The translations under genes were made by a program, and so were the position numbers. A model generated the notes under the pieces. It made no database searches. It saw only the letters and a program-made list of their open reading frames with translations, and had not been told where the DNA came from. DNA of 64,000 nt from positions 62,001 to 126,000 of the forward strand of contig NZ_VAWF01000004.1 in the NCBI RefSeq assembly GCF_005869845.1. The letters are read 5' to 3'. Origin of the DNA: Fodinibius saliphilus. Lineage in GTDB: Bacteria > Bacteroidota > Rhodothermia > Balneolales > Balneolaceae. Positions 5,888-9,686 of the stretch are shown piece after piece (position 1 is the first letter of the stretch; each line of letters starts with the position of its first letter).

Positions 5888-6805
5888 TTGGCAGAAATAG
5901 CACTAAAAGAGATGTCCCCCATCTCTTTTAGTGTTAGTCGTTTTGCTACAGGTGGAGCTGCGATGTTCTTCGTGATGTATCTGCAGTACCGGGCTAAATC
6001 CGGCCATAAACATAGCTCTATATCTTTCCTACCCAATATTAAAAAGAAAGATTGGCCGCGCCTGTTACTTATTTCGGTTATTGGCGCCACTCTTGCACCC
6101 TGGCTGGGTATTGAAGGACTGGGCCTCACGCATGGTGCACGAGCTTCATTATGGCTGGCCTTGGGGCCTGCAGTCAGTACTGCCTGTGGCTACTTTCTCA
6201 GAACCGAACAAATGGGCACCTATGGATTTCTTGGAGTCATACTTGCCGTAATGGGTACACTCATTCTCGGATGGGATGGGTTACAACCTGAACGAGGGTA
6301 TTGGTTCGGAGATCTTATCCTCATTTTTGCCCTTATTCTTACGATCATTGAATTACATCTTATTAAACCGTTGGCCCGTGATTATGGACCTATACCGATA
6401 GTAGCTCTACGTACTGCTATCGGAGGTACGCTTTATATTTTTATTGCTTCTCCCTCCCTATTAAATGTCAGCTGGACCTCTCTCGGCCTTTGGACTTGGA
6501 TAGCTATCCTTGCCGGTGGAGGCATAGGAGTTGGACTGGGACAGTGGGTAAAAGTTCGAGCTCTAAGAAAACTTGGCCCTACCCAAGTGGTACTTTACGG
6601 AAACTTGGTCCCTATTGCCGCCCTGCTCATAGCTTGGCTCAGCATTGGAGAAAACCCCTCACTGCCAGAAATAATATCGGCACTTTTTATTATTAGTGGC
6701 GCTATTCTTATACAAGTTATTGATCGTGAACCTGATACCCCATACCAAGATGCAAAAGTAAATAGTATGTATAGCAAACCTGAAAAAGAAACCGAGAACC
6801 CGTAG
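5888..6805 (+). CDS. EamA-family (DMT superfamily) transporter, 5' end uncertain
   Basis: A membrane protein of the drug/metabolite transporter superfamily with two EamA halves and a highly hydrophobic, about ten-helix layout. The motif region GLTHGARASLWLALGPAVS and the second-half APTQVVLYG-like segment (LGPTQVVLYGNLVPI) fit the family. The coordinates use the first conventional in-frame start, TTG at 5888, but this cuts off helix 1. The same frame is open back to 5786 and encodes SILVLFTFLWGANFILAEI, a typical EamA first helix, with no ATG, GTG or TTG before it. Removing one C from the CCCC run at 5834-5837 would join this to an ATG at 5830. Substrate is unknown. The tail beyond the last helix is polar. 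Confidence 0.8.
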   Translation: MAEIALKEMSPISFSVSRFATGGAAMFFVMYLQYRAKSGHKHSSISFLPNIKKKDWPRLLLISVIGATLAPWLGIEGLGLTHGARASLWLALGPAVSTACGYFLRTEQMGTYGFLGVILAVMGTLILGWDGLQPERGYWFGDLILIFALILTIIELHLIKPLARDYGPIPIVALRTAIGGTLYIFIASPSLLNVSWTSLGLWTWIAILAGGGIGVGLGQWVKVRALRKLGPTQVVLYGNLVPIAALLIAWLSIGENPSLPEIISALFIISGAILIQVIDREPDTPYQDAKVNSMYSKPEKETENP

Positions 6806-6960: not shown

Positions 6961-6997
6961 TTCAAATAAAAGAAGACAGACCTTTCGGCCTGCCTTC
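6961..6997 (-). terminator. Rho-independent terminator of the TonB receptor gene
   Basis: Read on the minus strand, an 11-bp stem (arms 6987-6997 and 6972-6982, two G-U wobbles) closes a GAAA tetraloop and is followed by TTTTATTT. It lies about 30 bp after the stop of the TonB receptor gene. Confidence 0.85.
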
Positions 6998-7027
6998 TCA
7001 CTTACACTAACCTAACACAACATCTAT

Positions 7028-9451
7028 CTAAAAGGTAAACGACAGCTGAAGCATAAAATTGCGTCCCGCTTGCGGATAATAATAATTATAATGTTGCTGA
7101 CTTCCCTGGCTAAGCAGGCCAAAAGTATAACCGTTTGACTCATACTTTTCGTCTAACAGATTATTAACCTCCAAGGTTGCGGTAATACCTTTAAACAAGG
7201 ACGCTTTGCTCCACTCATAAGCTACCCGCAAATCATTAACCAAATAAGGGTCTAAAGAACGACTTTTCGTCTGGGTATTATCCAGGTACTGTCGGCTTAC
7301 ATATTTTGTAGTTAGTTGTGCTGTAAAACCCTCTCTATTGAATTGAATAATTGAATTCCCAATAAAATCAGGGGAGAACGAAATATCTGTATCCTGATAC
7401 CCAAAGACCTTCTGGGTGTTTGTAGAATAGTCGGTCAAGTAATAGTTATACTCATCAATTTTATTGCGGCTTATTGTGGCATTTCCACTCCATTCCAGAC
7501 CATTCGTTATGTTAGCACCGGCTTGCAGCTCAATACCTGCCCTATAACTATTATCCACATTTTGTCGAATAGCTGATCCAATATCATTTATTTGACCAGT
7601 TAAAATGAGCTGATTCTTGTAATCCATGAAGTACAAGTTTGCACTAACAAAAAATCGTTCAAAACTTGCTTTATATCCGGCTTCCCAATCGTATAATGTT
7701 TCGTGCTCAGGACGACTTTCAGGAGTCGAATCCACATATTCGTCACGAGTGGGTTCCTTATTGGCCATACTGAAAGAAAAGTAGGCTCTATGGTTACCCT
7801 TATTATAAGTGAGTCCTGCTTTGGGATTGAAGAAAGTCAATTCGTCGGTTTGCTTAACATCTACAATATCATAGCTGTTACTTTGATTTTTGATACGGTC
7901 CTTACCTAAAAACTTATACGTAACACGTCGAATTTGGGCATCAGCATAGATTGTCAATGCCTCTGTAATATTATACTGCCCCTTTAGATAAGTATTAAAA
8001 TCTGTTTTAAAGCCATTATTATCGTAATAACGATTTTCGACATTGGTATTACCGAGATACTCACCCCAGATCACTTCACCGAAATGATCTCCATCATATT
8101 CATTATAGCCACCACCAAGAGTAATGGATCCCTTATCCTCGATATTATACTCCGTTGAAAAAACGGTGCCATAGAAATGATTATCTAACCATTTACGGCG
8201 AACCAGATCACTTTCCGAGACCGTATCCTGACTAAAGATAACGGGACTTATACTATAGTCACCGAGTTCTTCATCTGCCTTATACTGTTCATAATAACCC
8301 CGACCATAGGTATAGTGTAGCGAGGCATTGACATTCCAGTTCTTCGCCAAGTCATAAAAATAGTGTAGCTGGTAATGGTCTTGCTGGTAATTATCGGTTT
8401 GATCTTTATAGGGCGTACCCGGTTTTTCGGTACCAGCAGAATTGTAGGTACGTTCTCCGTTTTCCAATTTACTTTCGGAAACCCCATTCCAAGCGTGGTA
8501 TGTTTTTTCTTTACCGGAGAACACATCGGCTCGCAGCAAGCTTCGCTCACCATGCTTAGCTGCAGAAAGGTAAAACGATTTCAAATCCGATGATGCCCGA
8601 TCGATATATCCGTCTGACGTAATTTTTGAAAGACGGCCTTCGAACTGCCACCCATTTTCCATAAGACCGGAACCGAGCATTACATTAGCTTTTTTGGTAT
8701 CAAATGAGCCGATCCCGGTATTCACCTCTCCATAGGCATCCGATCGCATCTGTGAAGTCTGTACATTCACCGTAGCCCCAAAGGCCGCGGCTCCGTTCGT
8801 CGATGTCCCCACACCACGCTGGATCTGGATATTTTCAACGGATGAAGCTAAATCAGGAATATCGACCCAATATACGCCGTGTGATTCTGCATCGTTAAGC
8901 GGTATACCATTAATAGTTACATTTATACGCCCTTGATCAACACCTCGGATTCGCATCCCTGTATACCCAACCCCGGACCCGGCATCAGAAGTTGTTGTTA
9001 CTGATGGAGAGCTACTCATCATGTAGGGCATATCCTGACCCAGATTTTTCTTTTCAATATCTGTACGGCTCACATTATCAAAAGCCATGGGCGAGGCTTC
9101 ATCTACACGCAAAGCCTTTACGAACACTTCATTACTAATAACGGTATTGGGCACCAAGCTAATAGTAAGCTCACCTCCTCTTTTTGTCGTGTCGATAGTC
9201 TTGGATTTAAAGCCAACAAAAGTCACTTTTATTTTTGATGAAGCGCCCTCTTTTAATGACAGGGTAAAGGCTCCATTTTCATCAGCCGAAATACCGTTTT
9301 TAGTATCGAGCTGAATAATATTCGCCCCGGGCAGCGGTTCATTACTTTGTGCATCAATAACCATTCCGGTTATAGTTTGAGCAACAAGTGTGGTACTCAT
9401 TGCCATCAAAAAGCATAGAAATGCTGTTGCTCGTATTAGTTTGAAATACAT
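7028..9451 (-). CDS. TonB-dependent receptor, probable thiamine-compound importer
   Basis: An outer-membrane active-transport barrel of 807 residues. A signal peptide ends TTLVAQ, followed by a carboxypeptidase-regulatory-like beta-sandwich (about 5-90 of the mature protein), a plug domain (SRTDIEKKNLGQDMPYM, then RIRGVDQGRINVTINGIPL) and a large beta-barrel ending in LQLSFTF with the expected terminal Phe. I chose the ATG at 9449-9451 because it is preceded by GGAGG at five-base spacing and starts the signal peptide; an upstream TTG reading would add 21 unlikely residues. A TPP riboswitch in the leader implies repression by thiamine pyrophosphate, so the cargo is probably thiamine or a precursor. 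The cargo is inferred from regulation, not from the protein. Confidence 0.93.
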   Translation of the reverse strand: MYFKLIRATAFLCFLMAMSTTLVAQTITGMVIDAQSNEPLPGANIIQLDTKNGISADENGAFTLSLKEGASSKIKVTFVGFKSKTIDTTKRGGELTISLVPNTVISNEVFVKALRVDEASPMAFDNVSRTDIEKKNLGQDMPYMMSSSPSVTTTSDAGSGVGYTGMRIRGVDQGRINVTINGIPLNDAESHGVYWVDIPDLASSVENIQIQRGVGTSTNGAAAFGATVNVQTSQMRSDAYGEVNTGIGSFDTKKANVMLGSGLMENGWQFEGRLSKITSDGYIDRASSDLKSFYLSAAKHGERSLLRADVFSGKEKTYHAWNGVSESKLENGERTYNSAGTEKPGTPYKDQTDNYQQDHYQLHYFYDLAKNWNVNASLHYTYGRGYYEQYKADEELGDYSISPVIFSQDTVSESDLVRRKWLDNHFYGTVFSTEYNIEDKGSITLGGGYNEYDGDHFGEVIWGEYLGNTNVENRYYDNNGFKTDFNTYLKGQYNITEALTIYADAQIRRVTYKFLGKDRIKNQSNSYDIVDVKQTDELTFFNPKAGLTYNKGNHRAYFSFSMANKEPTRDEYVDSTPESRPEHETLYDWEAGYKASFERFFVSANLYFMDYKNQLILTGQINDIGSAIRQNVDNSYRAGIELQAGANITNGLEWSGNATISRNKIDEYNYYLTDYSTNTQKVFGYQDTDISFSPDFIGNSIIQFNREGFTAQLTTKYVSRQYLDNTQTKSRSLDPYLVNDLRVAYEWSKASLFKGITATLEVNNLLDEKYESNGYTFGLLSQGSQQHYNYYYPQAGRNFMLQLSFTF

Positions 9452-9496
9452 AAGTTCCTCCGTCTTATAGGATTCATAAGAGCGGGAGATGAACTT
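9452..9496 (-). promoter_or_regulatory. Putative Shine-Dalgarno-sequestering hairpin of the TonB receptor leader
   Basis: On the minus strand, AAGTTCATCTCC (plus 9485-9496) can pair with the ribosome-binding sequence GGAGGAACTT (plus 9452-9461) with a two-base bulge. Between them CTTAT/ATAAG forms a small inner stem. This is the layout expected of a translation-control expression platform downstream of a riboswitch. Confidence 0.5.
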
Positions 9497-9549
9497 GCAA
9501 GGAATGCTGATCAATCCGGCAGTTATTGTACTTTTTTCGGTAGTATCAC

Positions 9550-9637
9550 TGCCTTGGTTTCCCTACGCCGATCTTAATCGGTTCAGGTTCTCAGGGTATG
9601 GTCTCAGCCTGCTGTTGCAAGCACCCCCAACCTTTGT
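9550..9637 (-). promoter_or_regulatory. TPP (THI-box) riboswitch
   Basis: The minus strand carries the conserved aptamer words of the thiamine pyrophosphate riboswitch in order: GGGGGTGC, GGCTGAGA, ACCCTGAGAACCTGA, then GATCGGCGTAGGGA, with a GGTT/AACC closing helix. It lies about 100 bases upstream of the TonB receptor start and in the same orientation. TPP binding should lower expression of that gene. Confidence 0.93.
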
Positions 9638-9653
9638 AAAGTTAGAATGCGCC

Positions 9654-9686
9654 CAAAGATACGGGCATAAGGCGGAAGTTTCAAAA
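9654..9686 (-). promoter_or_regulatory. Bacteroidota-type promoter for the riboswitch-TonB transcript
   Basis: On the minus strand TTTG (plus 9682-9685) is followed after 20 bases by TATCTTTG (plus 9654-9661). This matches the Bacteroidota -33 TTTG / -7 TAnnTTTG consensus and its usual spacing. Transcription would start a few bases before the riboswitch aptamer. Confidence 0.6.

Follow-up and report, generated by a model that had tools for sequence, protein, structure and literature searches.

What a lone TonB-dependent receptor gene does behind a thiamine pyrophosphate (TPP) aptamer, and which inner-membrane transporter could serve it, is not obvious from its gene neighbourhood. Such a gene is found in the 64-kb stretch analysed here (C4:62001-126000, hereafter the window) of the 3.6-Mb genome of Fodinibius saliphilus, a member of the Balneolaceae. 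Judged from its sequence, the unit belongs to a known and ordinary kind, that of OMthi-type receptors controlled by TPP riboswitches. Its novelty lies in the setting: neither ThiC nor PnuT was found in the genome, which encodes YkoEDC instead. We consider it very likely that the gene forms a single-gene, TPP-controlled unit importing a thiamine-type compound, and that a gene run containing ykoEDC builds TPP in this cell, which has no ThiC match.

The first-pass annotation of this DNA had proposed a TPP aptamer ahead of the receptor gene, with the TPP covariance model as a check. Every motif that it quoted is present on the minus strand, and the Infernal search returned a match to RF00059 over the full length of the model (positions 1-105, E 5.9e-10) and above the gathering score (Table 1). 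RF00059 is the sole Rfam family above its gathering score in the window. The aptamer is unremarkable, whereas the platform behind it is predicted to be a lineage-specific hairpin that hides the Shine-Dalgarno (SD) sequence. The pairing of aptamer and receptor was followed in the best 80 of at least 592 receptor relatives from a GTDB genome scan, all from named genomes and 43-69% identical to the window receptor. The TPP model R1 was built from 22 aptamers of Fodinibius (throughout, a genus sample of 12 genomes), and matches at E≤0.05 upstream of the receptor on its strand were accepted; matches of R1 to its own building loci hold by construction, the 80 named loci being the independent set. 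R1 matched upstream of the receptor in 79 of the 80 relatives, with more than 47 bits in 72 of them and 25-39 bits in seven (L097, L101, L075, L070, L081, L077 and L107). The exception, L040, is not testable, its contig beginning 48 nt before the receptor gene. On this sequence conservation, the link between aptamer and receptor is old. TPP control of the receptor is supported above all because the match to the TPP model is conserved in 79 of 80 relatives.

The product of the gene shows an N-terminal PF13715 domain (CarbopepD_reg_2, carboxypeptidase-regulatory-like) and a PF07715 plug; the Pfam model of the barrel itself gave no match to the receptor. An AlphaFold model made with 39 sequences reached a mean predicted local distance difference test score (pLDDT) of 79.7 and a predicted TM-score (pTM) of 0.77. 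Compared with the PDB, this model gave its best matches with TonB-dependent transporters, among them FoxA and FecA, the pyrroloquinoline quinone receptor PqqU and YncD, with TM-scores (target length) of at most 0.77, while sequence alone matched just two short chains of N-terminal domains. The receptor thus appears to have the plug and beta-barrel of the TonB-dependent fold, the barrel being assigned from the predicted structure. In an alignment of 39 receptors (the window and 38 of the 80 relatives) 110 residues are invariant. The nearest named relatives belong to Fodinibius/Aliifodinibius and share 69%, 68% and 69% identity. Together with the covariance model and the conserved aptamer, the plug domain and the structural matches uphold the proposal of a single TonB receptor gene under TPP control.

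The unit had been described as monocistronic, with its own promoter and terminator, and the two ends of its span, 7028-9686, coincide exactly with the stop codon and the -33 box TTTTG of the promoter. The sequence TTTTG-N20-TATCTTTG follows what we take to be the Bacteroidota promoter consensus. Its 3′ end lies 15 nt from the aptamer, and the strict pattern was matched in 10 of 12 Fodinibius receptor leaders, but in only 15 of 80 when all receptor leaders in the census described below are taken. The receptor ATG follows 91 nt behind the 3′ end of the aptamer. A terminator-like hairpin is present downstream of the gene, as had been described; terminator-like sites in the region occur at chance level, with three seen against a shuffle mean of 2.8. 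Upstream on the same strand, a gene for an M14 peptidase ends about 450 nt before the aptamer. The annotation had also stated that neither a thiamine synthesis gene nor an inner-membrane thiamine transporter is adjacent. A membrane transporter gene of the EamA family does adjoin the unit in convergent orientation, but no adjacent transporter is annotated for thiamine.

Table 1. Positions of the features of the receptor unit in the window and of related RNA elements elsewhere (L and C numbers denote loci and contigs).
Feature	Position	Strand	Remarks
Bacteroidota-type promoter	9654..9686	-	TTTTG 9686-9682, N20, TATCTTTG 9661-9654; read from sequence
TPP riboswitch aptamer (THI element)	9543..9638	-	62.8 bits with RF00059 (gathering score 54.3)
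Aptamer strand GGGGGUGCUUGCAA, predicted anti-sequestor partner	9615..9628	-	fold with SD forced open
Platform strand UUGCAAGUUCAUCUCCC	9484..9500	-	alternative predicted partners: 9628-9615, or the SD strand for the part from AAGUUC onwards
Predicted sequestor hairpin AAGUUCAUCUCCCGCUCUUAU / AUAAGACGGAGGAACUU	9452..9496	-	minimum free energy structure of leader
Shine-Dalgarno GGAGG	9457..9461	-	5 nt ahead of ATG
TonB-dependent receptor gene, 807 aa	7028..9451	-	best start ATG 9451, stop 7028
Terminator-like hairpin 3′ of receptor gene	6970..6999	-	13 pairs, then T-rich stretch
Convergent EamA-family (drug/metabolite transporter, DMT) gene, outside riboswitch control	5888..6805	+	PF00892
Orphan TPP match 1	C1:1036444-1036543	+	RF00059 62.7 bits
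Orphan TPP match 2	C1:174255-174351	-	RF00059 60.5 bits
Orphan RNAs with 5′ domain	L006:6310-6600, L007:9256-9500		F. saliphilus genome, outside the window
TPP-free 5′ domain copies ending in U-run	L262, L264, L275-L279, L281-L283, L288		

The leader suggests how TPP may act on the receptor gene. Transcription from the promoter (9686-9654) would yield a leader with the TPP aptamer. At low TPP, the aptamer's 5′ strand, GGGGGUGCUUGCAA, would pair with the downstream strand UUGCAAGUUCAUCUCCC, the SD would be free and the receptor would be translated. At high TPP, the aptamer would close, the released strand would fold onto the SD (AAGUUCAUCUCC...GGAGGAACUU) and translation would stop. In the minimum free energy (MFE) structure of the window leader (-55.5 kcal/mol), the SD and AAGUUCAUCUCCC form a hairpin. 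When the SD was constrained to stay unpaired (-50.9 kcal/mol), the AAGUUCAUCUCCC strand paired with GGGGGUGCUUGCAA of the aptamer instead (5/5 in the window). Since AAGUUCAUCUCCC pairs with either the SD or the aptamer strand, the two predicted leader states are mutually exclusive. Every one of the 12 Fodinibius genomes has the platform word UUGCAAGUUCAUCUCCC in its leader. Receptor leaders from 78 loci were read, and the 70 whose SD stands 7-14 nt ahead of an open ATG formed the set for leader statistics. CCTCC stands upstream of the SD in 55 of these 70, whereas over 20 shuffles the count averaged 8.95 and never exceeded 15. The window carries CTCCC, and CTCC, CCTCC or CCTTC is found in 68 of the 70. 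By a simple count, the SD helix has at least eight pairs in 56 of 70 leaders, with 25 different inner stems. These stems differ between genera and still pair, which is compensatory variation. Eleven of the 14 leaders failing this count come from Fodinibius, the window included; their stem is mismatched, but four to five of the five SD bases are paired in the MFE fold. The platform looks translational, that is, SD-sequestering, though the fold statistics weighed below are modest. The receptor leader at L022 (Fodinibius G003) carries about 150 nt of extra sequence between the anti-SD and SD strands.

The partner permease had been predicted to lie elsewhere in the genome, and a search for other THI-box genes had been proposed. 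RF00059 has four matches in the genome of F. saliphilus. One of them leads a same-strand run of genes read as thiL, thiD, tenA, ykoE, ykoD, ykoC, thiO, thiG and thiE, and two are the orphans discussed below. Pfam assigned AIRS, Phos_pyr_kin, TENA, ABC_cobalt (YkoE, PF09819), ABC_tran twice and CbiQ to six genes of the run; the AIRS protein was read as ThiL, and thiO, thiG and thiE were named by eye. We take YkoEDC of Bacillus to be an energy-coupling factor (ECF) type transporter of hydroxymethylpyrimidine (HMP) and thiamine. The set found here resembles it in the combination of PF09819, a double ABC ATPase and CbiQ and in its place in a TPP-led run with tenA and thiD; it differs in having a Gram-negative host and in its occurrence in 5 of 89 Balneolaceae genomes, all Fodinibius and F. 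saliphilus among them. This TPP-led YkoEDC set is the candidate for the inner-membrane partner in this genome, in keeping with the predicted location. Within the proposed working of the unit, the TonB-powered receptor would import thiamine, or just its pyrimidine half, through the outer membrane, and the thiL-thiE run would move the pyrimidine across the inner membrane and build TPP from it. Family-wide searches covered 89 genomes for PnuT, ThiC and YkoE and 92 for RF00059 and the model R2 introduced below. ThiC was found in none of the 12 Fodinibius and none of the 89 family genomes (0/66 in the subset with completeness of 90% or more), while the search succeeded in 13 of 14 control genomes; the cell should therefore need to take up pyrimidine or thiamine. 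TPK is present in all 12 Fodinibius genomes. PnuT (PF04973), the gene that the first-pass annotation had named for a search, gave no match above the cut-off in the 12 Fodinibius genomes and one weak match below it in G010, and was rejected as the partner for this genus. Across the family it is present above the cut-off in 37 of 89 genomes, leaving 52 without it. Within flanks of at most 4 kb, pnuT adjoins the receptor in 12 of the 80 relative loci. Three matches to the TPP model occur in the receptor or pnuT region of L048, where the order is TPP, pnuT, AAA_28 protein, TPP and receptor, and two in that of L086.

The closest known system is OMthi (BT2390) of Bacteroides thetaiotaomicron, a TonB-dependent receptor led by a TPP riboswitch and thought to carry thiamine across the outer membrane (PMC5613172). 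The window receptor likewise is of the TonB-dependent type and encoded behind a TPP riboswitch. B. thetaiotaomicron makes its own thiamine and has PnuT, whereas the F. saliphilus genome has YkoEDC, no ThiC match and no PnuT above the cut-off. In B. thetaiotaomicron, growth suffers when OMthi and PnuT are both lost but not when either is lost singly; both proteins occur in 91 of 114 gut genomes, so that PnuT is usual without being strictly defining, and YkoEDC is reported from no gut-associated Bacteroidetes (PMC5613172).

Several observations count against the proposed working of the unit. The SD is paired in at least four of five positions in the MFE fold of 57 of the 70 leaders, only moderately above the 41-49 of 70 obtained with shuffled linkers. 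Pairing of the anti-sequestor into the aptamer (at least 3 nt, SD forced open) occurs in fewer than half of the leaders (29 of 70), and the unconstrained 199-nt fold gives neither clean state, its stability being above that of shuffles (z -2.62). On the transport side, YkoE is present in just 5 of the 12 Fodinibius genomes and therefore cannot be the general partner. In B. thetaiotaomicron, deletion of OMthi alone is reported to leave growth unchanged and the OMthi transcript to be insensitive to thiamine (PMC5613172); the second finding agrees with translational control without proving it. With seven of 12 Fodinibius genomes having neither YkoE nor PnuT above the cut-off, and with an EamA gene adjoining the receptor in the window and at L035, L036 and L045, the convergent EamA transporter might be thought the inner-membrane partner. 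This is improbable in our view: the EamA gene stands on the opposite strand and has no TPP aptamer, and the genome has YkoEDC. Control by transcription termination, as used by TPP riboswitches of many bacteria, is if anything less probable for the receptor leader. It is disfavoured because no terminator-like site on the minus strand was listed by the scan for the interval from the aptamer to the start codon, and the SD hairpin recurs in the family.

As to the substrate, the receptor could mainly import HMP or the pyrimidines of degraded thiamine, the substrate of TenA, and not intact thiamine. The lack of a ThiC match in all 89 family genomes searched would suit this, as would the union of tenA, thiD, ykoEDC and the gene read as thiG in one TPP-led run. 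Against it stand the TPK of all 12 Fodinibius genomes, which points also to use of intact thiamine, and the PnuT genes beside 12 of the 80 receptor relatives. For B. thetaiotaomicron, moreover, the authors state that import of a critical precursor by its two transporters was ruled out (PMC5613172), which weighs somewhat further against this reading; we hold an import chiefly of pyrimidines to be possible but doubtful. A receptor for haem, cobalamin or a siderophore, whose TPP leader would be incidental, is very hard to credit. NCBIfam models of haemoglobin/transferrin, B12 and siderophore receptors match the protein weakly and far under their cut-offs, and all 79 testable relatives have retained the TPP-model match. 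Import of a thiamine-type compound under TPP control thus remains the favoured account of the unit.

TPP aptamers are widespread in this family. RF00059 matches 37 places in the 12 Fodinibius genomes, with every genome represented, and 85 of 92 family genomes. A census was made with a pattern script and seven aptamers added by hand; identical aptamers (12 loci) were merged, and L184, from another family, was lost. Sorted by the following gene, its 140 stretches precede a receptor of type 1 in 60 cases, a receptor of type 2 in 20, a methyltransferase gene in 14, thiL in 6 and thiD in 1, and 39 have no reference gene within 500 nt. Four stretches come from other families, L182 and L183 among the 60 and L181 and L185 among the 39. 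The 39 include 30 copies of the class D described below one false pattern match (L140_2272) and the unassigned L177; in five others (L118, L123, L126, L131 and L187) a ThiE-like stretch follows after about 900-1,100 nt. At L165 (G075) a stretch of 9 kb contains both receptor types, each behind an aptamer of its own. In three Fodinibius genomes (L009, L015 and L017) the leader is the same and the signal peptide similar, but the receptor is only about 31% identical to that of the window over the part compared. The 14 methyltransferase genes, of the S-adenosylmethionine (SAM) dependent type, include L013, L027, L028, L029 and L250-L253; where four of these loci were read on, genes for AIR-synthase-like, ThiE-like and Trm112-like proteins follow, the last two named by eye.

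The two orphan TPP matches of the F. saliphilus genome (Table 1) belong to a different kind of RNA. Terminators follow both. The nearest same-strand open reading frame (ORF, 60 aa) begins about 400 nt behind orphan 1, and none was found in the 700 nt behind orphan 2. The family yielded 31 such copies, named class D; they come from 23 of its 92 genomes, and Fodinibius accounts for 11 of the 23. L177 looks like an orphan but does not show the class D signature and was excluded. None of the reference thi or receptor genes was found within 500 nt of class D (30 copies). The first same-strand ORF (60 aa) is absent within 700 nt or more than 300 nt away in 18 of the 31, and comparison of the 13 nearer ORFs among themselves gave no match at E 1e-3. 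In the aptamer part, P1 is long and covaries, and P4 shows a change from C-G to U-A relative to ordinary TPP aptamers. Its structure is 85.7% paired over 27 sequences, with double changes at 23 of 29 pairs, and none of 500 shuffles scored as high. CTGAGA is kept in 30 of 31 copies and the 3′ core C-G-A/T-AAGG in 24 of 31. The core is clearly lost in L149, L152, L166 and L169, and L004 of the F. saliphilus genome reads GGCACAAGG; therefore not all class D RNAs are expected to bind TPP. A rough script placed a terminator-like site within 140 nt of 26 of the 31. The class D model, R2, also matches ordinary TPP aptamers, and class D is set apart by its signature, the lack of a reference gene and its 5′ domain.

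In class D the order of parts is a pseudoknotted 5′ domain, the TPP-like domain and usually a terminator. The 5′ domain, of about 112 nt, consists of P1 (GAGCACA/UGUGCUC), a hairpin with a UACG-type loop and a third stem, from whose loop a pseudoknot reaches bases 3′ of P1. It is 90.1% paired over 29 sequences with double changes at 21 of 23 pairs, and none of 500 shuffles was as high, the structure having been drawn from the same alignment. The full domain is present in 29 of 31 copies, L150 and L170 being without a complete one, and it has no Rfam match in the class D loci. R3, the model of this domain, gave no match in 100 other TPP loci. In a sample of 395 genomes of the phylum, 46 of them Balneolaceae, R3 matched 26, all Balneolaceae. 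Its 45 places comprise 18 of class D and 27 outside it. Fourteen of the 27 were fetched and 13 were readable (L280 is clipped); a U-run follows right after the pseudoknot tail in 11 of the 13. Matches of R2 and R3 to their own building loci again hold by construction, the TPP-free copies being independent for R3. Since copies without a TPP part end in a U-run, the domain also exists alone. The 14 loci fetched gave no Rfam match at E≤0.5, and several copies are preceded by sequence like GTGGATAAC..TTGACA..TATGCTAAT. In the window itself no class D-type RNA was detected, R3 giving one match at E 0.18 and R2 the known aptamer only.

The view that the orphans are relics of lost genes is disfavoured by their own signature, the strong covariation and the constancy of the 5′ domain across genera. 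Membership of a known Rfam family was rejected as well: at E≤1, ten class D loci gave, beside RF00059, just three matches far under the cut-offs, to two microRNA families and one snoRNA (E 0.49-0.69). By their sequences, these RNAs form a group with a TPP-like domain and no gene in cis, seen only in Balneolaceae and with a 5′ domain not in Rfam. We found no literature on Balneolaceae riboswitches or on orphan or variant TPP RNAs in a search that left subscription papers uncovered and so does not show absence from print. EutX and Rli55 are riboswitch-containing small RNAs in which a metabolite aptamer is part of a separate RNA without a gene in cis. The orphan RNAs would resemble them in this respect; they differ in having another ligand, another effector domain and the aptamer-like part at the 3′ end. 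It is a tentative and rather doubtful suggestion that the two stand-alone RNAs of F. saliphilus (about 250-350 nt) read TPP or a relative and act in trans, TPP switching the 5′ effector domain. GAGAGAG occurs in 10 of 31 class D copies by a simple pattern, and seed pairing with the anti-SD of the receptor leaders is an idea only. Class D RNAs often lie beside genes that, by eye, resemble stress genes. If the suggestion is true, a metabolite-aptamer-like fold fused to a structured domain would be a riboswitch turned stand-alone regulator.

The receptor unit extends the riboswitch-receptor pair to the Balneolaceae, a family without a ThiC match. In a genus that lacks the expected PnuT partner, these halophiles should depend on external vitamin B1 or its pyrimidine.

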